Assembly (NCBI GenBank): GCA_016290885.1
Contig: JAEEVN010000009.1
Location: 1-42,710, forward strand
Origin: Caryophanales bacterium
GTDB taxonomy: Bacteria; Bacillota_I; Bacilli_A; RF39; UBA660
DNA length: 42,710 nucleotides
Direction: 5' to 3'
How positions within the stretch are numbered: position 1 is the first letter of the stretch; every line of letters begins with the position of its first letter. Of this stretch, positions 7,479 to 27,986 are shown piece by piece. The position numbers and the translations under genes were made by a program. Below the pieces are notes generated by a model that made no database searches, had not been told where the DNA came from, and saw only the letters and a list, made by a program, of their open reading frames with translations.

Positions 7479-9761
7479 ATGGATTATAAAAAGAAACCAG
7501 GTCAAAGAATAGAAAAGATAGGCACAGTATTAAATAATGAAAAACCTACAATTAGTATAGTTACACCATTTTATAATGGTGGTAAGACCTTAATGGAAAC
7601 TGCTAATTCTGTATTTAGTCAAACATATCCATATTTTGAATGGATAATAGTAGATGATGGCTCTAAAGAAGAAGATTCTTTAAAAGAATTAGCTAAATTA
7701 GAAAAGATGGATAATAGAATTAAAGTATTTCATAAAGAAAATGGTGGTCCATCAGTAGCAAGAGATTATGGTATAGAACATTCAGAAGATACTAAATATG
7801 TATTCTTCTTAGATTGTGATGATATTATAGATAAAACAATGCTAGAATGCTTATATTGGACACTTGAAACACATCCTGAAGCATCATTTGCATATACTAC
7901 AATGGTTAACTTTGGAGATAGAGAATTTATCTGGGAACAATGGTTAACTGTTGAAAGAGAAATGGTTGAAAATGTCATTTGTATAGCTTCAATGGTTAAG
8001 AAAAGTGATTTGCTTGAAGTAGGTTGCTTTGGTCTTAAGGAAAAAGGATTATATGAAGATTGGAACTTATGGTTAAAATTACTTAAAGCAGGTAAAATTC
8101 CAATTAGAGTAAGCGATAAATTATTCTGGTATCGTATAAATAGTACAGGAGAATTCTCACGTGCTAATCAAAATAAAAAAAGAGCAATGAAGTATATCAA
8201 AGAAACTGCTAAAGGTATAAAAAATAATGTTGATATAATTCAATTCCCTCGTGAGGGAAGTAAATATGATACAGTAAATGAACTTAATATGGTAGTTCCT
8301 ATGTATAAAAGGGATAATAATAGAAAAAATATATTATTTATATTCCCTTGGATGGTAGTAGGAGGAGCAGATATATTCAATCTTGAATTAATTAAAAGAT
8401 TAGATAAGAAAAAATATAATCCAATTATTATTACAACTACCCCAAATATAAATGAATTTGAACAAGAATTTAAAGAATATGCAGAATGTGTTTATGATAT
8501 GTCATCATTCTTAGATAGAAATGCATATATTAACTTTGTTGATTACATAATGGAAAGTAGAAATATTGATGAAGTAGTAGTAAGTAACAGTCAATATGGA
8601 TATTATATGGTTCCATATTTAAAAGGTAAATATCCAAAAGTACCTTTTATAGATTATATTCATTCTATTGATTCTGCAGATCCAAGAGAAGGTTTTGGAA
8701 GATGTACTATGGATGTTGATAAATATCTTTCGGGAACTTATGTATGTAATAATTTTACAAAAAAACAATTAGAAACTAATTATAATAAGAAGAATGTTAA
8801 TACATTATATATAGGTACTGATGATGAAAGATTTGATCCTGAAAAGTATGATAAAAAGGAATTATTAAAGAAATATAATCTTCCAAAAGATAAACTAATT
8901 ATTACAATGATTGCACGTTTATCAGATGAAAAAAGACCGGAGATGTTTGTAGAAATATGCAAGAGAATTCATGAAAAACATCCTAATACTTATTTCCTTA
9001 TTGGAGGAGATGGCCCATTAAAGAAAAAAGTAGAAAGATTAGTGGATGATAACTTTAGAATGCTTGGAATGGTATCTAATTCTGAAGAAATATATAAAGT
9101 TAGTGATATAACAATAAATTGTTCATCTCTTGAAGGACTTGCTTTAACATCATATGAATCACTTGCTATGGGAGTACCGGTAGTATCTACTGATGTAGGT
9201 GGTCAAACTGAACTTATCGATTCATCAGTAGGAGGTGTAGTTCACTATAATGAAAATGCAGATAAAGATACATATAATAAAGAAATAGATGAATATGTAG
9301 AAGAAGTAGGTAGAGTAATAAAAGATTTAGATAATATTAAATCTAATTGCCGTAAGAAAATTCAAAAAGGATTCTCATATAAGATAATGGTTAAGAATTT
9401 TGAAAAAGTTCTTGATGAAAATATTGAAAAAGAAAAGAATACTAAGGGATTTCCTCATGGATATATAGACTATAACTTTGCAGTAGAAGCATTAACTAAA
9501 TCATATTTCTATTTTGTTAAATATTATGTAGTTAATACATTCGGTATACCATATGATGGATATAACTATAGAAAGAAAGAAAAAGTTAGTAAATTCAAAG
9601 CTCTTTTATATAAAAAATATGCTAATCATGATGCGGATATTATATTTAATTTTTTAAGAGGAGTTAGAAGAACTCTTAGAGAATTTGTAGTAGCAGCTAA
9701 ATTCTTTATTAAATCAATACCAGCATCAATTAGACTAATATATAAATTAATATTTAAATAA
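7479..9761 (+). CDS. Two-domain glycosyltransferase (GT2 + GT4 fusion)
   Basis: A 760-residue protein joining two glycosyltransferases. The N-terminal GT-A domain (about 25-260) shows ISIVTPFYNGG, VDDGSKEED and FFLDCDD metal-binding residues. The second part (about 282-640) is a GT-B domain of family 4: NILFIFPWMVVGGADIF opens it, MIARLSDEKRPEMF lies mid-domain, and SLEGLALTSYESLAMGVP (near 550) is the EX7E donor site. A basic tail of about 110 residues ends in an amphipathic stretch that could touch the membrane. It probably adds two successive sugars to a surface glycan. It is monocistronic, lying between two terminators. Confidence 0.85.
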   Translation: MDYKKKPGQRIEKIGTVLNNEKPTISIVTPFYNGGKTLMETANSVFSQTYPYFEWIIVDDGSKEEDSLKELAKLEKMDNRIKVFHKENGGPSVARDYGIEHSEDTKYVFFLDCDDIIDKTMLECLYWTLETHPEASFAYTTMVNFGDREFIWEQWLTVEREMVENVICIASMVKKSDLLEVGCFGLKEKGLYEDWNLWLKLLKAGKIPIRVSDKLFWYRINSTGEFSRANQNKKRAMKYIKETAKGIKNNVDIIQFPREGSKYDTVNELNMVVPMYKRDNNRKNILFIFPWMVVGGADIFNLELIKRLDKKKYNPIIITTTPNINEFEQEFKEYAECVYDMSSFLDRNAYINFVDYIMESRNIDEVVVSNSQYGYYMVPYLKGKYPKVPFIDYIHSIDSADPREGFGRCTMDVDKYLSGTYVCNNFTKKQLETNYNKKNVNTLYIGTDDERFDPEKYDKKELLKKYNLPKDKLIITMIARLSDEKRPEMFVEICKRIHEKHPNTYFLIGGDGPLKKKVERLVDDNFRMLGMVSNSEEIYKVSDITINCSSLEGLALTSYESLAMGVPVVSTDVGGQTELIDSSVGGVVHYNENADKDTYNKEIDEYVEEVGRVIKDLDNIKSNCRKKIQKGFSYKIMVKNFEKVLDENIEKEKNTKGFPHGYIDYNFAVEALTKSYFYFVKYYVVNTFGIPYDGYNYRKKEKVSKFKALLYKKYANHDADIIFNFLRGVRRTLREFVVAAKFFIKSIPASIRLIYKLIFK

Positions 9762-9783
9762 GCGATTTATCGCTTATTTTTTA
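9756..9783 (+). terminator. Intrinsic terminator after the GT2-GT4 gene
   Basis: A perfect 10-bp stem AAATAAGCGA/TCGCTTATTT with loop TTTA is followed by T. The stop codon is in the left arm. Confidence 0.88.
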
Positions 9784-9823
9784 TGTAAATAATAAAAAAA
9801 TAATATCTAATATTATTAGTATA

Positions 9824-9832
9824 TGTTATAAT
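9824..9832 (+). promoter_or_regulatory. Extended -10 promoter of mraY
   Basis: TGtTATAAT with no recognisable -35, about 29 nt before the mraY ATG. Confidence 0.6.
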
Positions 9833-9860
9833 TAATAATAGGCAAAGGATGTGTTAGAAA

Positions 9861-10853
9861 ATGTATGTATTAACAAAATCAGTATTAGCATTAATGATAG
9901 GATTCATTATATCTTCTGTTTTTGGTTTATTTTTTGTTCCATTTATGAAAAAAATGCATTTTGGACAAGTAACAAGCAAATATGTAAAACAACATAAAGG
10001 AAAGAGTGGAACTCCTACTATGGGAGGCTTAATATTTATAGTATCTACATTAATTACAATAGCAGCATTAGTTTTAACAAATAAGATGAATCTTTCTACT
10101 AACTTATTTATAGTTTTATTCGTATTCCTTGGATATGCTGTAATAGGGTGGGTTGATGATTTTCTTAAACTAAAATTTAAATCTAATGAAAAAGGATTAA
10201 CAAGACTACAAAAGTTTATAGCGCAGATAGTATTAGCAATCATTATTTTCTATTTATACATAAAAGATGGATCAAATCCTAATGTAGAAATTATAGGTTT
10301 AAATATTAATCTTCATTTAGGATTCTTATATGGTTTCTTTATATTATTTATGCTTGTAGGTACAAGTAATGCAGTTAATTTAACTGATGGAGAAGATGGA
10401 CTTGCTGCAGGATTATCTGTTATAGCATTTGGTGTATATGGTATGATTGCATGGAGTTCTTCATGGTTATCTGGATATGATTCAATAGCAATATTCTGTT
10501 TTATATTAGTAGGTGGACTCCTTGGATTCCTTGCATTTAATTCATATCCTGCTAAAATATTTATGGGTGATACAGGATCACTTGCTCTAGGTGGAACACT
10601 TGCTATGATAGCAATGCTTACAAGAAGAGAATTCTTACTTGTTATAGTAGGAGGAGTATTTGTTATTGAAACATTATCAGTAATACTTCAAATAGCATCA
10701 ATTAAAATTAGAGGTAAAAGAATAATCCCAATGGCTCCACTTCATCATTCATTTGAAAAATTAGGATGGAATGAACCTGATATAGTTAAACTATTCTATG
10801 TAGCAGGATTCATATTAGGAGCAGTATCTATTATATATGGAGTTTGGATTTAG
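9861..10853 (+). CDS. mraY: Phospho-N-acetylmuramoyl-pentapeptide transferase MraY
   Basis: A 330-residue, ten-helix membrane enzyme that moves phospho-MurNAc-pentapeptide from UDP to undecaprenyl phosphate to form lipid I. Family motifs in order are KSGTPTMGG (cytoplasmic loop), GWVDDFLKLKF with the catalytic Asp pair, NAVNLTDGEDGLAAG, MGDTGSLALGG and the APLHHSFEKLGW loop. Two positions differ from the usual forms: TDGEDG where TDGLDG is common, and HHS where many homologues have HHH. A small membrane-protein gene follows at 14 nt. The usual murD neighbour is absent. Confidence 0.95.
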   Translation: MYVLTKSVLALMIGFIISSVFGLFFVPFMKKMHFGQVTSKYVKQHKGKSGTPTMGGLIFIVSTLITIAALVLTNKMNLSTNLFIVLFVFLGYAVIGWVDDFLKLKFKSNEKGLTRLQKFIAQIVLAIIIFYLYIKDGSNPNVEIIGLNINLHLGFLYGFFILFMLVGTSNAVNLTDGEDGLAAGLSVIAFGVYGMIAWSSSWLSGYDSIAIFCFILVGGLLGFLAFNSYPAKIFMGDTGSLALGGTLAMIAMLTRREFLLVIVGGVFVIETLSVILQIASIKIRGKRIIPMAPLHHSFEKLGWNEPDIVKLFYVAGFILGAVSIIYGVWI

Positions 10854-21109: not shown

Positions 21110-22027
21110 ATGAAAGTTAATCGTTTAATGCTATTTATAACTTCAATATTAACTTTACTAATGGCAGTATTATATCCATTAGCAAAGATTCTATTACAAA
21201 TAAAAAATATACAGAATTTATATTTAAGTTTTGGAGTTATATTCTATTTATTAATTATGATAATAATAGCAATAACTGATGTAGTGTTAGTTATATATTT
21301 TATAAGATATATAATTAAAAATAATATTAATAAAAAAGTATTATGGATTATATTAATATTATTATTTAATGTATTTATAATTCCATATTTCTATATGAAA
21401 TATGTAGAAAAAGAAGAAAGTATTTTATTTAATACAATGTTATATATAATACCAATGCTTCTTTATTTAGTAGTATTCGGATATGGCACTTATGTATATA
21501 CTGATTTATATAACCAAAAGAAAGAAGAAGAAAAAATAATAGAAGCTACTAAAAATTATTATTCTACAAAAGATACTAAAACAACATTTACATTTGGATA
21601 TGGATATAAACAAAAAGATGTTGGTGAATATGATTTATATGTCATTAATACTGATAAATCAATAGTATTTTCAGCATTTACATATAATACTATTGATTAT
21701 GAACAAAAAACAGTAGATGAATTCCTAAATAAAGGTATTGAAGATTTAAAAGTAGGTAAAAAGAATTTTATAGAATTTAGTAAGAAAAAAGAAATAAAAG
21801 GAGATAACTATTTAATAACTACAGTATCTTATGAAGGAGAAGCAGAAGTAAAAACTAAGAATAAGGTTTCTACTTCAGATTGTATTTATAAACTATCAGT
21901 TATTTCATTTGATAGTGATCCTGGATACTTAGTTTATGTAATAGAAGTTGTTACAAAAGCTAACTATAATGACTATAAAACCGAGCTATTAGACATATTA
22001 AAATCAGTTTCTGTTAATTTTAATTAA
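21110..22027 (+). CDS. Membrane protein with extracytoplasmic domain, unknown function
   Basis: A 305-residue protein I do not recognise. Four N-terminal helices (about 8-28, 42-66, 76-97 and 105-128) are followed by a charged linker and a soluble domain (about 145-305) with alternating strands and a late helix (NYNDYKTELLDILKSVSVNF). The soluble part loosely resembles PsbP-like folds in Firmicute lipoproteins, but I see no diagnostic motif. It starts behind AGGAGG, 9 nt after the ArsP_2-like gene, and ends at a strong terminator. It lies just before the peptide-export locus, but the terminator argues against shared transcription. Confidence 0.65.
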   Translation: MKVNRLMLFITSILTLLMAVLYPLAKILLQIKNIQNLYLSFGVIFYLLIMIIIAITDVVLVIYFIRYIIKNNINKKVLWIILILLFNVFIIPYFYMKYVEKEESILFNTMLYIIPMLLYLVVFGYGTYVYTDLYNQKKEEEKIIEATKNYYSTKDTKTTFTFGYGYKQKDVGEYDLYVINTDKSIVFSAFTYNTIDYEQKTVDEFLNKGIEDLKVGKKNFIEFSKKKEIKGDNYLITTVSYEGEAEVKTKNKVSTSDCIYKLSVISFDSDPGYLVYVIEVVTKANYNDYKTELLDILKSVSVNFN

Positions 22028-22056: not shown

Positions 22057-22089
22057 TTTTTACCGAGAATAATATTATTGGAGGTGAAA

Positions 22090-24066
22090 ATGAGATATGT
22101 AAAACAATCAGGTATAAGAGATTGTGGGATTACATGCTTATATAACATTATTAGGTTCCATAAAGGAGATGTTTCGATAGAAAAATTAAGAGAATTATCT
22201 CATACTAATGAAAATGGAACATCAATATATAATTTAATGGAAACATCTAAATCTTTAGGATTAAATGCTAAAGCATATAGATGTGAACTTAATGATTTAT
22301 CTAAAGTAGAGTTTCCCATAATAGCTTATATAAAACTAAATAATTATTATCATTTTGTTATTATAAAAGATGTTGAAGTAGATAATATTCTTGTATTTGA
22401 TCCAATTAGAGGAGATATATCTTATACAATAGATGAATTTCTAAAAGATTGGCAAAATATAATTATTACTTTTAAAAAAGAAGGTAAAATTGTCAATGAA
22501 AATACTTATTATTTTGATTATTTGAAGGAGCTAGTTTTAAATAATAAGAATTTAATGATTATACTTCTTATAATATACTTAGTAATAACTATTATAGATA
22601 TTTCATATTCTATTGTTTTAAAGCAAATAATGACTTCTAAAAAAATTCTATTTGTTTCCATACTTTCGTTATTCATATTAAAAATATTTTCTTATTGCAT
22701 TAATAATAAAATTGCTTTGAAATTTAATAATAAAATTGATGATGACTTATCTAGTAAGATTTACAAAAAATTATTTTCTCTTCCATACTCTTATTACCAT
22801 AGTAGACCAGTAGGAGATTTATTATCTAAGATTAATGATTTATATTATGTAAAAGATTTTTTAAATCTATTAACATCATCTTCTGTAATTGATGCATTAT
22901 TAATAATTTTTATTTTGATTTTTATATTATTCACATCATTTAAAATGTTTATAATTCTACTATTTTGTTCAATAGTTTATTTTCTATTTGACTTCCACAC
23001 CCTTAAACACGAAATTAAAAAACTAAATGAATTAAAAGAAAGTTATTCTAATAATAATGCTACATTAACAGATAATGTTTTAGGTATAGATACTATTAAA
23101 AATTTAAATATTGAGAATAAAGTTATAACTAGTCAATTAAAAAACTTTCATTCATATCAGCACTCATACTATACTTATAATACTTATTTAATACATAAAT
23201 CTACAATACTATTAGTTATTTCATATATTCCTATGTTAGTTTTATTAACAAATAAATATACTAGTGGAGAATTAATTATGTTATTTAGTTTACTAACAAC
23301 ATACTTTTCTTCATTAAATAATATTACTTTATTAATAAGAAAATATATGGATGCTAATTTATCTTATAAAAGATTAAATGATTTATTAAATTATGAAATA
23401 ACTAACGATACAAATAAAGTTATAAAAGATATTCAAAATATTAAATTTAATAATATAAACTATAAAATAAATAATAAGATATTAATTAACAATTTTACAT
23501 TAAATATTAATAAAGGAGATAATATATTTATATCAGGTAAAAACGGAGTAGGTAAATCAACTATATGTAAATTATTAATTAAAAATCTACCTATAAAAAA
23601 TAATAATATTTTTATTAATAATATTGATCTAAATGATATAAAAGAATCCTCTGTTAAAAATAATATAAGTTATGCATCACAAGATGAATATATATTTCAA
23701 GATACTATAAAAAATAATATTATTTTAAATAAAAATGTATCAAGTAGTGAGATTAACAAAGTATTAAAAGTAACAGAACTAGATAAAATGTTAAAAAATA
23801 AGAATATTAGTTTAGATTATTTCTTAGAAGAAAATGGTCATAATCTAAGTGGTGGTGAGAGACAAAAAATATTGCTTGCAAGAACTTTACTTAGAAAAAC
23901 GGATTTTGTTGTATTTGATGAAACTACTAGTGAAATAGATGTAGAAACTGAAAGAAAAATAATTAAGAATATACAAACTGAATACAAAAAGACAATGATA
24001 TTTATTTCACATAGAGATTCAAATATAGATTTGTTTAATAAGAAAGTTTATTTAAAAGGGGGATAA
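22090..24066 (+). CDS. C39-peptidase ABC peptide exporter (PCAT)
   Basis: A 658-residue peptidase-containing ABC transporter that should cut double-glycine leaders and export the freed peptide. Domain order: C39 peptidase (1-130) with Gln6, Cys12 in RDCGITC, His88 in HFVII and Asp104 in FDPIRGD; a six-helix membrane domain (about 150-440); and an ATPase (about 455-658) with Walker A GKNGVGKST, Q-loop YASQDE, signature LSGGERQ, Walker B FVVFDETTSEID and H-loop SHRD. All key residues are present. GGAGGTG supports ATG 22090 rather than an in-frame TTG at 22078. A GG-leader peptide gene starts 2 nt after its stop, an obvious substrate. Confidence 0.92.
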   Translation: MRYVKQSGIRDCGITCLYNIIRFHKGDVSIEKLRELSHTNENGTSIYNLMETSKSLGLNAKAYRCELNDLSKVEFPIIAYIKLNNYYHFVIIKDVEVDNILVFDPIRGDISYTIDEFLKDWQNIIITFKKEGKIVNENTYYFDYLKELVLNNKNLMIILLIIYLVITIIDISYSIVLKQIMTSKKILFVSILSLFILKIFSYCINNKIALKFNNKIDDDLSSKIYKKLFSLPYSYYHSRPVGDLLSKINDLYYVKDFLNLLTSSSVIDALLIIFILIFILFTSFKMFIILLFCSIVYFLFDFHTLKHEIKKLNELKESYSNNNATLTDNVLGIDTIKNLNIENKVITSQLKNFHSYQHSYYTYNTYLIHKSTILLVISYIPMLVLLTNKYTSGELIMLFSLLTTYFSSLNNITLLIRKYMDANLSYKRLNDLLNYEITNDTNKVIKDIQNIKFNNINYKINNKILINNFTLNINKGDNIFISGKNGVGKSTICKLLIKNLPIKNNNIFINNIDLNDIKESSVKNNISYASQDEYIFQDTIKNNIILNKNVSSSEINKVLKVTELDKMLKNKNISLDYFLEENGHNLSGGERQKILLARTLLRKTDFVVFDETTSEIDVETERKIIKNIQTEYKKTMIFISHRDSNIDLFNKKVYLKGG

Positions 24067-24068
24067 TT

Positions 24069-24200
24069 ATGAAAGAATTAAATATTAATCAAGCAAAAAA
24101 ATTATATGCAGGAGGTTTTTCTGCAGCAGCATTTGCTGCAATAGTAAGTGGCGTATCATTCGTGGTTGGAATTTTAGATGGGCTAAGGAAACCCAAATGA
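24069..24200 (+). CDS. Double-glycine leader peptide 1 (bacteriocin-like)
   Basis: A 43-codon gene, too short for most gene finders, with ribosome-binding site AGGGGGA 5 nt before its ATG. The leader MKELNINQAKKLYAGG (16 residues) ends in Gly-Gly. The 27-residue core starts FSAAAFAAIVSG, is mostly small and hydrophobic with a membrane-helix look, and ends in the cationic GLRKPK. It starts 2 nt after a C39-peptidase exporter. The second peptide gene at 27800 shares 11 of 16 leader residues and FSA after the cut, which argues strongly that this is real. Function as bacteriocin or signal is inferred. Confidence 0.85.
   Translation: MKELNINQAKKLYAGGFSAAAFAAIVSGVSFVVGILDGLRKPK
24105..24124 (+). 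repeat. 20-nt direct repeat copy 1 (leader cleavage region)
   Basis: The 20 bases TATGCAGGAGGTTTTTCTGC encoding YAGGFS are identical at 27836-27855, so the two peptide genes share a duplicated, conserved leader segment. Confidence 0.9.
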
Positions 24201-24349
24201 CAAAATCTCAAAAATATCGAATGTCCCGTATATTTAAAAGGAAAACATTTGATACTAATCCTAAAAAAAGATGTAATTATGTCCATCAAATTGTAAGGTT
24301 TGAGGCATATTTAACAATTGATAGTCAGTATAATGACAAATTTAAATAA
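24197..24349 (+). CDS. Small basic ORF coupled to peptide 1 (possible immunity protein)
   Basis: A 50-codon frame whose ATG overlaps the stop of peptide 1 (ATGA), a classic coupling arrangement. The product is very basic (about thirteen Lys/Arg against four acidic), begins MTKSQKYRMSRIFKRKTF, has one Cys and no membrane helix. Its codons CGA, CGT, AGG and TCC are unusual beside the AGA/TCA preference of neighbours, so it may be foreign or non-coding. Small ORFs after bacteriocin genes often give immunity, but nothing here proves this. A terminator follows about 40 nt later. Confidence 0.4.
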   Translation: MTKSQKYRMSRIFKRKTFDTNPKKRCNYVHQIVRFEAYLTIDSQYNDKFK

Positions 24350-24388
24350 CTATTTGATTTAACAAAAAAATATTTTTCCAATTAACTT

Positions 24389-24418
24389 GACTTTGGACCC
24401 TAATGGTCCAAAGTTTTT
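24389..24418 (+). terminator. Terminator of the exporter-peptide 1 unit
   Basis: Stem ACTTTGGACC/GGTCCAAAGT with loop CTAAT, then T. The rest of 24350-24542 holds only this hairpin, the next promoter and a short leader. Confidence 0.9.
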
Positions 24419-24455
24419 GGTTGACATTATATTTATACTTTTTGTTTTCAAATTA

Positions 24456-24484
24456 TTGTCACATTATACCGTTTTTGTTATAAT
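24456..24484 (+). promoter_or_regulatory. Strong promoter of the BspA-like surface protein
   Basis: TTGTCA (24456-24461), a 17-nt spacer and TATAAT (24479-24484) preceded by TGt. The roughly 50-nt leader has a small CGGA/TCCG hairpin (24514-24528) just before the ribosome-binding site. Confidence 0.8.
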
Positions 24485-24542
24485 TAAAATGAATAATAAT
24501 CTAAAATAGAAACCGGAATAGAAATCCGATAGAGGTGAACTT

Positions 24543-27500
24543 ATGAGAAAAGTAGGGAGAAAGAAAAAATCAAGAATAATAAAGACTAGATTATTTACAA
24601 TGTTATTTGCATTGTTATTTGTTGTGTCTTTATTTACAAGCTTTAAGGCTGCGGCTGAAACTAAACCATTTAGTTTAAGTTCAGCAACAATATCTGATAA
24701 ATCTTCAGGAGTAACTGGAAGTATATCTAGTTTTACTGATGAAGAAGTTATTAATGATATTACATTCCATAAACTAAATGATTATGCTACTTTCAAATTA
24801 GTTATAAAAAGTAACCTTAGTAGAGAAATAACTATTTTAGAAATAACAGATGATAATAGTAATAGTTATATAGACTATGAATATGATAAACATGAAAATG
24901 AAAAAATAACAGCAGGATCTAATTTAAACTTTGAAGTGAAAGCAGTATATAAAAATGCAGTAACTGATACTTCAAAAAGAAATCAAACAAATAATGTTAA
25001 GTTCACAATTAAATATTTAGATAATAATGAACAAAAAGAAGCTGATATAACAGTTAATCCAAAGACAGGAGATAATATTCATATAAGTTATATATTATTA
25101 GTAATATCTTCAATTGGACTAGCTACATCAATCGCATTAGATAAGAGAAGAAGAAATAGAAAATTATCTAAATTAGCAGTATTAATCTTAACAGGATTAG
25201 TATTAAGTCCAGTAGTTGTTAAAGCGGCTACATTTGCATATGAAATAACATTTAAATCAACTATAGGATTATATGATAAAGTAGTAGTTACAATAGATGA
25301 TAAAGTAAATCCAGTAACAACTCAAACAATAGACTATAATACAAAAATAGATAGTCTACCAAGTCCTACAAAAGAAGGATATACATTAACTAAATGGACA
25401 GTAGGTACAAGTGATTTTGATATTAATGAAAATATAACAAGTGATATAACTATAGAAGCAAATTATAGAAAGAATAATTATACTATTAGATTTGCTCCTA
25501 ATGTTCCAGTAGGTGGAACATTAGATCCAACTACATCTATGGCAGACATGAATATGGAATATGGTGAAGAAAAGAATCTATTACCAAATGGATATTTAGT
25601 AACAGGATATTTATTTGATAGTTGGAATACTTCATCAGATGGAACTGGAACTAAATATGAAGATATGGATGCAGTTAAGAATTTAACTACAACAGATGGT
25701 GAAATAGTTACATTATATGCAAGATGGGGAGCAACTCCATATACAGTAATATTTGATAAAAATAGTAGTCAAGCAACTGGAACAATGAATAATATTTCAA
25801 AAGAATATAACGAAACATTTAATTTACCAGCAAATACATATACAAGAAATGGATATAACTTCAATGGATGGAATACAGCTTCTAATGGAACAGGTATTCA
25901 TTATGATGATGAACAATCAGTTAAGAATCTAGATATAGATGGAGAAATTACTTTATATGCTGAATGGTCTCCTACATTAATTACAATAACATTTAATATT
26001 AATACAGATGATCCAGAAGCATCTGGAACAATGGCAGGACAAATTGTAGTATTTGATGTTCAAAACCAATTAAATGAAAATGAATATACAAGAACAGGTT
26101 ATGCTTTTGATAGCTGGAATACTGAACCAGATGGATCAGGAATCAAATATGATGATAAAGCAGATATAACAAACGTATTCTTAGATAACACTACTTTATA
26201 TGCACAATGGGCTGTAACACCATATACAGTAATCTTTAATAAAAATGGTGGAACTGGTTCAATGGATAATCAAGAAATAGCATATGGTCAACAAGTAGCA
26301 TTAACTAAGAATACATATACTAGAGAACACTATAAATTCCTTGGATGGAATACTCAAGAAGACAAACAAGGTTCTCATTTTGATGATGAAGAATTAGTTA
26401 AGAATCTTGATATAGATGGAGAAGTAAATCTATATGCAGAATGGATAGAATTAACTTCAACACTTCAAACTGGTGGAAATGTTAATGCAATCATTAAAAA
26501 TATAAATGCAGATGCAACAGAATTTAAACATTATACAGGAACACCCGATTTTGATAACATAAATGGAGAAGAAATAATATCTTCAGATGAAGCTAATTTT
26601 CCAACATATGCATGGAATGATAATGGAACAATTTATTGGTGGTCAGAAGCTGAAAAAGTTTATATTAATGAATCTGGTGATTCAATGTTTAGAAATTTAA
26701 CTTCAATAGAAAGCATTGATTTACTAGGTTTAGACTTTAGCAATAATATCACATTAAATAGGATGTTTGCGTTTGATAGTTCATTAACTGAAATTAAGAA
26801 TAGTAATTTAATGAATACACCAAATGTTACATCACTATCACATATGTTTTATGATTGTAGTGGTATGGAAGAATTAGATTTAAGTGGTTGGGATACAAGT
26901 AATGTTAATAATGTTGATAACATTTTCGTAGGTATGACAAATTTAAAAGTCTTGAAACTAAATGGTTGGAATTTAACTAATTTTAGTAATAATTTGACTT
27001 TACCAACTTCATTAACTAGTATTAGTATGAGAGATGCAATTGCTGGCGAAGACATGTCTAATTTCTTTGCAAATCTTGAAAATTTAAAAAATATTGACTT
27101 AACAAACTTTGATACATCAAATACAACAAAAATGAATGGAATGTTTAACAAATGTAGTAGCCTAGAATCATTAAATATATCAAGTTTTAATACTGAAAAT
27201 GTAACAACTATGAGTGGTATGTTTGGATATTGTTCTAGTCTTAATACACTAGATGTTTCCAACTTTAATACAAAAAAAGTTTCTAATATGTATGGTATGT
27301 TTGCTCATATGGATTCATTACAGAATTTAAATGTATCAGGATTTAATACAGAAAAAGTCGAAACTATGAATAGAATGTTCTCATTCTCATATGCACTTAG
27401 CGATTTAGACATTAGTTCATTTAATACAAGTAATGTTACAGATATGGAATCAATGTTCCATTATTCAAAAGTAAAACACATATATGTAAGTGAAAATTTT

Positions 27501-27683
27501 GTTACAAATAATGTAACATCTTATAATTATATATTTGGAGTAATGTCAACAGAATTAAAAGGTGGAAAAGGAACACAATGGAGTTCATCATTACAAAGTA
27601 ATAAAGATTATGCTTGTATAGATGATCCAGATAACGGAAAGCCAGGATTATTTACTGATATAGCTGATAAACCACAACCATAA
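24543..27683 (+). CDS. BspA/InlB-repeat surface protein with internal sorting-like signal
   Basis: A 1046-residue exported protein. Residues 1-38 are a basic signal peptide ending near AAA. A first domain (39-170) leads to NPKTGD (172-177), a helix (180-199) and KRRRNRK, which together look like a sortase sorting signal placed internally. A second hydrophobic segment (210-227) ends VVVKAATF like another signal peptide. Then follow five Listeria-Bacteroides (InlB/Flg_new) repeats (about 245-634), each ending in a LYAEW-type motif. A BspA-like region (about 690-1010) has repeated MFxxCSSLxxLDxSxFNTxxVxxM units (DUF285). The C-terminus PGLFTDIADKPQP has no anchor. It probably binds host or bacterial surface partners. 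Confidence 0.85.
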   Translation: MRKVGRKKKSRIIKTRLFTMLFALLFVVSLFTSFKAAAETKPFSLSSATISDKSSGVTGSISSFTDEEVINDITFHKLNDYATFKLVIKSNLSREITILEITDDNSNSYIDYEYDKHENEKITAGSNLNFEVKAVYKNAVTDTSKRNQTNNVKFTIKYLDNNEQKEADITVNPKTGDNIHISYILLVISSIGLATSIALDKRRRNRKLSKLAVLILTGLVLSPVVVKAATFAYEITFKSTIGLYDKVVVTIDDKVNPVTTQTIDYNTKIDSLPSPTKEGYTLTKWTVGTSDFDINENITSDITIEANYRKNNYTIRFAPNVPVGGTLDPTTSMADMNMEYGEEKNLLPNGYLVTGYLFDSWNTSSDGTGTKYEDMDAVKNLTTTDGEIVTLYARWGATPYTVIFDKNSSQATGTMNNISKEYNETFNLPANTYTRNGYNFNGWNTASNGTGIHYDDEQSVKNLDIDGEITLYAEWSPTLITITFNINTDDPEASGTMAGQIVVFDVQNQLNENEYTRTGYAFDSWNTEPDGSGIKYDDKADITNVFLDNTTLYAQWAVTPYTVIFNKNGGTGSMDNQEIAYGQQVALTKNTYTREHYKFLGWNTQEDKQGSHFDDEELVKNLDIDGEVNLYAEWIELTSTLQTGGNVNAIIKNINADATEFKHYTGTPDFDNINGEEIISSDEANFPTYAWNDNGTIYWWSEAEKVYINESGDSMFRNLTSIESIDLLGLDFSNNITLNRMFAFDSSLTEIKNSNLMNTPNVTSLSHMFYDCSGMEELDLSGWDTSNVNNVDNIFVGMTNLKVLKLNGWNLTNFSNNLTLPTSLTSISMRDAIAGEDMSNFFANLENLKNIDLTNFDTSNTTKMNGMFNKCSSLESLNISSFNTENVTTMSGMFGYCSSLNTLDVSNFNTKKVSNMYGMFAHMDSLQNLNVSGFNTEKVETMNRMFSFSYALSDLDISSFNTSNVTDMESMFHYSKVKHIYVSENFVTNNVTSYNYIFGVMSTELKGGKGTQWSSSLQSNKDYACIDDPDNGKPGLFTDIADKPQP

Positions 27684-27707
27684 GAAGAGTGAAAACTCTT
27701 CTTTTTT
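27682..27707 (+). terminator. Terminator after the surface-protein gene
   Basis: Stem AAGAAGAGT/ACTCTTCTT with loop GAAA, then T. Confidence 0.88.
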
Positions 27708-27799
27708 GTTTATAAAAAGAAAAATGATTCAGATTTGTCGCACCTCACATTTATTGTTTTGTCATTGGAGGGAATCGCAAGAATTCTAAGGTGTAATTA

Positions 27800-27961
27800 A
27801 TGAAAGAACTAAATATTAGAGAAACTAAATCAATGTATGCAGGAGGTTTTTCTGCTACATTACTAGGTTATGTTATAAAAGGATTTGGATTTTTTACAGA
27901 TCTTGGAAGATATTTAGGATCATCATTAAGAAGATTTTACGATCACAATTTATGCGACTAA
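27800..27961 (+). CDS. Double-glycine leader peptide 2 (bacteriocin-like)
   Basis: A 53-codon gene with AAGGTG upstream. The leader MKELNIRETKSMYAGG has the same length as that of peptide 1 and differs at five positions. The 37-residue core begins FSATLLGYVIKGFGFF, is Gly- and aromatic-rich, and ends RRFYDHNLCD with a single Cys near the C-terminus. The C39 exporter 3.7 kb upstream is the likely processing enzyme. It has its own terminator and no close exporter or immunity gene. A two-peptide bacteriocin with peptide 1 is possible, as are two independent peptides or pheromones. Upstream, 27708-27799 shows no firm promoter. Confidence 0.82.
   Translation: MKELNIRETKSMYAGGFSATLLGYVIKGFGFFTDLGRYLGSSLRRFYDHNLCD
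27836..27855 (+). repeat. 20-nt direct repeat copy 2 (leader cleavage region)
   Basis: Identical to 24105-24124 and in the same codon phase. Confidence 0.9.
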
Positions 27962-27986
27962 AGAGAAGATTTTCTTCTCTTTTTTT
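27960..27986 (+). terminator. Terminator after peptide 2
   Basis: Stem AAAGAGAAGA/TCTTCTCTTT with loop TTT, then T. It begins within the stop codon. Confidence 0.85.

Follow-up and report, generated by a model that had tools for sequence, protein, structure and literature searches.

Organisation of the locus in the window

This analysis concerns a peptide export locus in a 42,710-nucleotide contig of a Caryophanales bacterium (JAEEVN010000009.1 of assembly GCA_016290885.1), the whole of which is referred to here as the window. The locus contains the gene for an ATP-binding cassette (ABC) exporter with a C39 peptidase domain, and two small genes, A and B, encoding precursor peptides with double-glycine (GG) leaders (Table 1). 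We consider it likely that it is an interrupted copy of a two-peptide exporter locus, similar to those of class IIb bacteriocins, that is found throughout the order.

Table 1. Features of the locus, with positions given for the whole window.
Feature	Position	Strand	Basis or remarks
C39-peptidase ABC exporter, PCAT type, 658 aa	22090..24066	+	Pfam domains, catalytic residues
Peptide A precursor, truncated	24069..24200	+	Leader MKELNINQAKKLYAG, core GFSAAAFAAIVSGVSFVVGILDGLRKPK; family end xRPLxC replaced
Insert splitting A and parting A from B, ~3.6 kb (approximate ends)	24182..27746	+	Absent from G010, the closest relative
Terminator-like hairpin inside the insert	24389..24415	+	Hairpin search
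Promoter-like site of the inserted surface-protein gene	24456..24484	+	TTGTCA-17-TATAAT, 11/12 matches, TG extension
Inserted surface-protein gene	24543..27683	+	Listeria-Bacteroides repeats, PARCEL/DUF285 repeats
Terminator-like hairpin between the inserted gene and B	27682..27703	+	Hairpin search
Remnant of the 3' end of A	27747..27800	+	TFIVLSLEGIARILRCN followed by a stop; stop overlaps ATG of B, as in G010
Peptide B precursor, intact	27800..27961	+	Leader MKELNIRETKSMYAG, core GFSATLLGYVIKGFGFFTDLGRYLGSSLRRFYDHNLCD; GxxxG and Cys present
Terminator-like hairpin 3' of B	27960..27982	+	Hairpin search

The two GG-leader genes had been proposed from the DNA letters alone (the original prediction), and their coordinates and translations were borne out, as was the resemblance between their leaders. 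Both precursors begin with MKELNI and contain YAGG followed by FSA, and a 20-nt stretch (tatgcaggaggtttttctgc) is identical in A (24105-24124) and B (27836-27855). Profiles of the two families found the window peptides in their own genome at E 1.4e-18 (A) and E 1.1e-21 (B), and neither peptide matched any Pfam or NCBIfam model.

Analysis of the exporter showed matches to Peptidase_C39 (PF03412, E 9.5e-34), ABC_membrane (PF00664) and ABC_tran (PF00005), in agreement with the earlier assignment, and the residues named then (Q6, C12, H88 and D104) are present together with the Walker A, signature and Walker B motifs. The gene also ends where it had been said to end, its stop codon (24064-24066) being separated by 2 nt from the start of A, and an in-frame TTG is present at 22078, upstream of the exporter start. 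The closest solved structures were PCAT1 (4ry2, E 2e-68) and ComA (8hf4), and the protein has the features of the PCAT/AMS class, namely a C39 peptidase with Cys, His, Asp and the oxyanion Gln, fused to transmembrane and ATPase domains. Judged by its sequence, it is an ordinary PCAT-type transporter that shares its three domains, its catalytic residues and the canonical spacing of the leaders with PCAT1 and ComA, but unlike them it is of a type dedicated to one conserved peptide pair. It represents the single C39 match in the whole genome of the window. Its best NCBIfam match was NF045998 (Mbov_0121, a mycoplasma exporter), at 301.6 bits and below the cut-off of 500.

Directly upstream of the exporter (21110-22027), a gene encodes a protein of 305 aa whose N-terminal part contains several membrane helices; within the window's genus it occupies this place in each of the 11 loci that extend so far.

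Distribution of the exporter and the two peptides across the order

A, B and the C39 domain were sought by profile in a sample of 193 genomes of the order. A was found in 182 genomes, B in 183 and the C39 domain in 185, and the single A sequence of the window, used as a query, found a homologue in 138. All eight genomes without a C39 match (G088, G090, G110, G138, G163, G167, G217 and G254) were also without A and B. The exceptions to this co-occurrence were G076, with a weak C39 match and neither peptide, G013 and G262, with the C39 domain and B and no A found, and G235, with the C39 domain and A and no B found. Each of the 39 relatives inspected closely had the gene order exporter, A, B, with A and B overlapping or separated by a few bases. 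The small open reading frames (ORFs) are therefore conserved in relatives, and what had looked like an undescribed locus is no isolated case but a nearly universal trait of the order. The view that A and B are orphan peptides was rejected, since full-length orthologues of both are found across the order, far more than chance would give.

An independent scan of a public collection of named genomes with the B profile retrieved 64 loci, with A also present in 62 and the exporter in 61. All of these came from uncultured metagenome-assembled genomes labelled Bacilli, Tenericutes, Firmicutes/Bacillota or Erysipelotrichaceae, Candidatus Faecisoma merdavium being among them. Outside the group, 340-odd genomes of the class and more than 370 of the phylum gave no more than weak matches, in most cases to the leader, and the A and B cores are thus, as sampled, specific to one order. 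Single typical A or B sequences gave no match in phage and plasmid collections. We infer from the size of the genome, the cell-wall genes present in the window and the names attached to these loci that the order is GTDB RF39, which comprises uncultured gut Bacilli with small genomes; two papers on this order make no mention of bacteriocins (PMC7301438, PMC10868615). A large uncultured gut lineage thereby gains a specific secreted peptide pair, its exporter and a candidate immunity factor.

The match to NF045998 also raised the question of a link to the orphan exporters of the Mbov_0121 type in mycoplasmas. This link was rejected; beyond the family, matches to A and B are confined to their leaders, and in the loci inspected there the cores were unrelated and no related exporter was found within ~5 kb.

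Peptide cores and comparison with class IIb bacteriocins

A comparison of the A and B profiles showed that the leaders are shared and the cores are not. The A core follows the pattern AGxxFxIGxxDGxxRPLxC and the B core DxGRSLGSAIRRIxxxxxC. GxxDG was present in 83 of 87 distinct A sequences, with a GxxxG-like motif in the remainder, and GxxxG in all 93 distinct B sequences; both motifs are present in the window. A Cys near the C-terminus was found in every B (93/93) and in 86 of the A sequences, the sole exception being A of the window. Among nine related species, dN/dS was 0.14 for A, 0.09 for B and 0.15 for the exporter, values indicating that all three genes are under purifying selection.

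The presence of GxxxG in both cores is a stated mark of class IIb bacteriocins (PMC6957408). A typical A member from a relative scored above the cut-off of TIGR03949 (lactobin A/cerein 7B; 39.1 vs 21.5 bits), and neither window peptide matched this model. With the lactococcin G models NF038035 and NF038034 (cut-off 37 bits), one A member reached 21.2 and 16.0 bits and other members gave weak E-values only, so that, unlike the lactococcin G family itself, the cores do not rise above its cut-offs. Matches of the A and B profiles to solved structures were weak, and some were to leaders (CtA peptide, E 0.58 and 0.14).

The loci of the relatives resemble those of class IIb bacteriocins (lactococcin G, plantaricins EF and JK, and the lactobin A/cerein 7B family) in having adjacent GG-leader precursors, a GxxxG motif in each core and an exporter of the C39 ABC type; many of them also encode an accessory-like protein, and a small membrane protein (gene C, described below) is a candidate for immunity. 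They differ in that the locus is near-core and order-wide, each peptide has one conserved C-terminal Cys, the immunity candidate is homologous to B, and the accessory protein is reduced or missing. The parts appear to follow the class IIb plan, and are set apart by their core distribution in the order, the paired C-terminal cysteines and the B-like C. The proposal that one exporter serves both peptides of a two-component, class IIb-like system is strongly supported at the level of sequence by the order-wide co-occurrence, synteny and GxxxG motifs, and to this extent the original prediction of what may be a two-component bacteriocin stands; the window copy is interrupted, and its application there is doubtful.

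Leader register and the predicted cleavage site

Leaders of 84 A and 89 B sequences were aligned on the processing site. Hydrophobic residues occupied position -12 in 99% of A and 97% of B, position -7 in 88% and 87%, and position -4 in 96% and 100%, respectively. Leu(-12), Glu(-8) and Leu(-7) have been described as the leader positions before the double Gly (PMC6363468). In this alignment the YAGG of the window places AG at -2/-1 and the G that follows as the first residue of the core, and B of the closest relative has YGG|N at the processing site. Given the hydrophobic positions at -12/-7/-4, cleavage in the window's genus probably occurs at YAG|GFSA, after AG rather than GG, and the predicted cores are consequently of 28 residues for A and 38 for B, instead of the 27 and 37 proposed earlier. 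The unusual leader spacing reported at the same time (-13, -11, -5 and -4) was a misregister of one residue that arose from counting from the second G.

Interruption of A in the window

The closest relative of the window locus is that of genome G010 (locus L062), whose exporter is 79% identical. There, A (9601-9741) and B (9741-9905) overlap by one base (TAATG). A of the window aligns with its counterpart in G010 only to position 24181, inside codon 38, beyond which it continues with LRKPK and a stop codon, and the sequence indicates that it is damaged and has lost its Cys. The remnant of the 3' end of A next to B scored 14.8 bits against the A profile, while the best unrelated segment among 1341 segments of the window scored 4.6 bits. 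Both the truncation and this remnant had been overlooked in the original prediction. No repeat of the left end of the insert was found elsewhere in the genome. Approximately nine residues of A (S/TFxxxxxD/EG) are represented on both sides of the insert, so that simple insertion does not account for the break, which may have originated in a short duplication or in recombination involving copies of A.

The inserted protein matched PF09479 (E 5.1e-41), PF03382 (E 3.1e-40) and the PARCEL repeat TIGR02167; a horizontal distribution of PARCEL repeats has been described (PMC2996958). It has an internal region like an LPXTG anchor (~residues 172-205), after which come another membrane segment and the repeat domains, and looks as if two reading frames for surface proteins had been fused. 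Terminator-like hairpins are enriched in the region (8 found vs 0.6 expected), promoter-like sites as a whole are about as common as shuffled sequence would give or less so, and no such site was seen in 27704-27800. B is probably cut off from the exporter transcript. Taken together, the split of A, the lost Cys and the terminators between the exporter and B imply that the normal A and B pair is probably not made in this genome; unlike the class IIb layout, the two peptide genes lie ~3.6 kb apart and A is truncated.

Other features of this locus were seen in relatives. In G010, three large genes (711, 760 and 948 aa) with similar first residues lie between B and RecD2 (L062:9963-17357), where the window has nothing, and the region looks like an insertion hot spot. 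The exporter gene of G008 (L068, G008:C2) is in pieces while A and B are intact, and that of G004 (L072, G004:C7) runs off the end of the contig.

A third gene and an accessory-like protein in other genera

An ORF of 42-62 aa, here called C, was found in 63 of 104 loci, starting around the end of B with an overlap of typically ~12 nt, and divergent further copies exist beyond these. C lacks a GG leader and has a membrane helix at its N-terminus, and homology to the B core is seen in its final 30 residues (hhalign probability 95, E 3.5e-8). The median score of the C profile was 13.4 bits with B cores, compared with -0.8 with shuffled B cores and -0.4 with A cores. GxxxG of C was kept in all 53 of 53 sequences, and C is under purifying selection (pN/pS 0.24, and 0.13 in the B-like part). 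C is absent from the window, its genome and its genus.

The simplest reading of these sequences is that C acts as a substitute for B, tethered to the membrane of the producer and pairing with A there, and C may be an immunity decoy protecting the producing cell. The fuller model, in which a near-core, order-wide two-peptide system has immunity by mimicry, with the leaderless C replacing B beside A and blocking pore formation, is put forward only tentatively. Of the immunity proteins known for two-peptide bacteriocins (LagC, LciM and CbnZ; PMC6957408), C resembles CbnZ (42 aa) in its small size and predicted membrane helix; unlike these proteins it has a C-terminal segment homologous to the B core. 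The mechanism of class IIb immunity was called a mystery in 2019 (PMC6957408), and the B-like C suggests a simple molecular logic for it. A text search of an open library of papers returned none on a class IIb immunity protein homologous to a bacteriocin peptide core, and we know of no such protein. In the genus without C, the 305-aa protein upstream of the exporter is a possible substitute immunity gene.

A second additional protein, of 130-160 aa with one transmembrane helix, is encoded between the exporter and A in 67 of 105 loci. It matches no Pfam model and is not found in all lineages, the window's genus being among those that lack it. The helix is followed by a beta domain (AlphaFold2 pLDDT 86.6), with fold matches to MacA, Spr0693, BesA and EmrA (Foldseek probability 0.97-0.99, but E ~0.1 and TM-score ~0.36), which is only suggestive of a membrane-fusion-like protein. 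No conserved histidine kinase or regulator was found among the neighbours of the locus.

Proposed function and alternatives

From what is known of the family, the exporter would cleave the leader from each peptide behind the GG of the alignment (AG in the window's genus) and export both cores. A would form a hydrophobic helix bearing GxxDG and B an amphipathic one bearing GRSLG, and the two probably pair in the membrane by way of these motifs, with the C-terminal cysteines of both perhaps contributing. We somewhat favour the view that the pair acts on related cells in the manner of a class IIb two-peptide bacteriocin, with C possibly protecting the producer by occupying A.

Several observations weigh against this interpretation. 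Bacteriocins are normally patchy and diversifying, and the distribution seen here is near-universal and strongly conserved; a single-locus system under purifying selection is the opposite of the usual pattern, and raises the question of whether peptides of this kind can belong to the core equipment of a lineage. Beside the locus, no immunity gene is conserved across all lineages, and the window's genus lacks both C and the accessory-like protein. With regard to the interruption, B of the window is intact, and read-through or an unseen promoter could allow its expression.

The main rival is that A and B are a secreted signal, a pheromone pair perceived by the producing species itself, for which C would be a partner in the membrane. 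Pheromones such as ComC are likewise secreted through C39 exporters, the exporter of this locus is similar to ComA, and the near-universal presence, the purifying selection and the lack of a universal immunity gene would all suit a core function of this kind. We nevertheless regard signalling as unlikely, as no histidine kinase or regulator is a conserved neighbour, two distinct helical GxxxG peptides are typical of class IIb bacteriocins and not of known pheromones, and the sequence matches are to bacteriocin families. Conservation across the order in reduced genomes would also fit a structural or developmental role for A and B in the producer's own envelope, for example in spore formation, which has been predicted for RF39, rather than in competition or signalling, and the locus does lie among housekeeping genes such as rpsU. 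The loss of the whole set in the eight genomes listed above indicates that it is dispensable, and the B-like C fits immunity or the blocking of a partner better, making an envelope role improbable.

The split of A in the window could be an artefact of assembly or binning, the real genome having an intact locus. The assembly is fragmented (52 contigs, 5% contamination), and the same insertion was found in no second genome. Both flanks are, on the other hand, syntenic with relatives (the exporter and its upstream genes on the left, B followed by RecD2 on the right), the insert contains a promoter-like site and terminators of its own, and the remnant of A lies in its ancestral position with a diverged sequence. 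An artefact would be quite improbable in the light of these features, and we retain a real interruption of A as the explanation for the window.

Other GG-leader peptides in the class

A different GG-leader peptide was observed in other families of the class (L230:4931-5146, L232:4981-5169 and L229:5028-5195), consisting of a leader, one transmembrane helix, a Ser/Gly-rich stretch and an aromatic end (e.g. YRLFMSSxGxxTLPGGFKFTW). No related exporter was seen within ~5 kb of these genes, which look like a second conserved family of secreted peptides. In the small complete genomes of family f4, translated with TGA as Trp, two tandem GG-leader ORFs were present (L227:5106-5600 and L228:5028-5525); these had no C39 exporter within ~5 kb and have in common an end of the E-ILFV/ILYV type.

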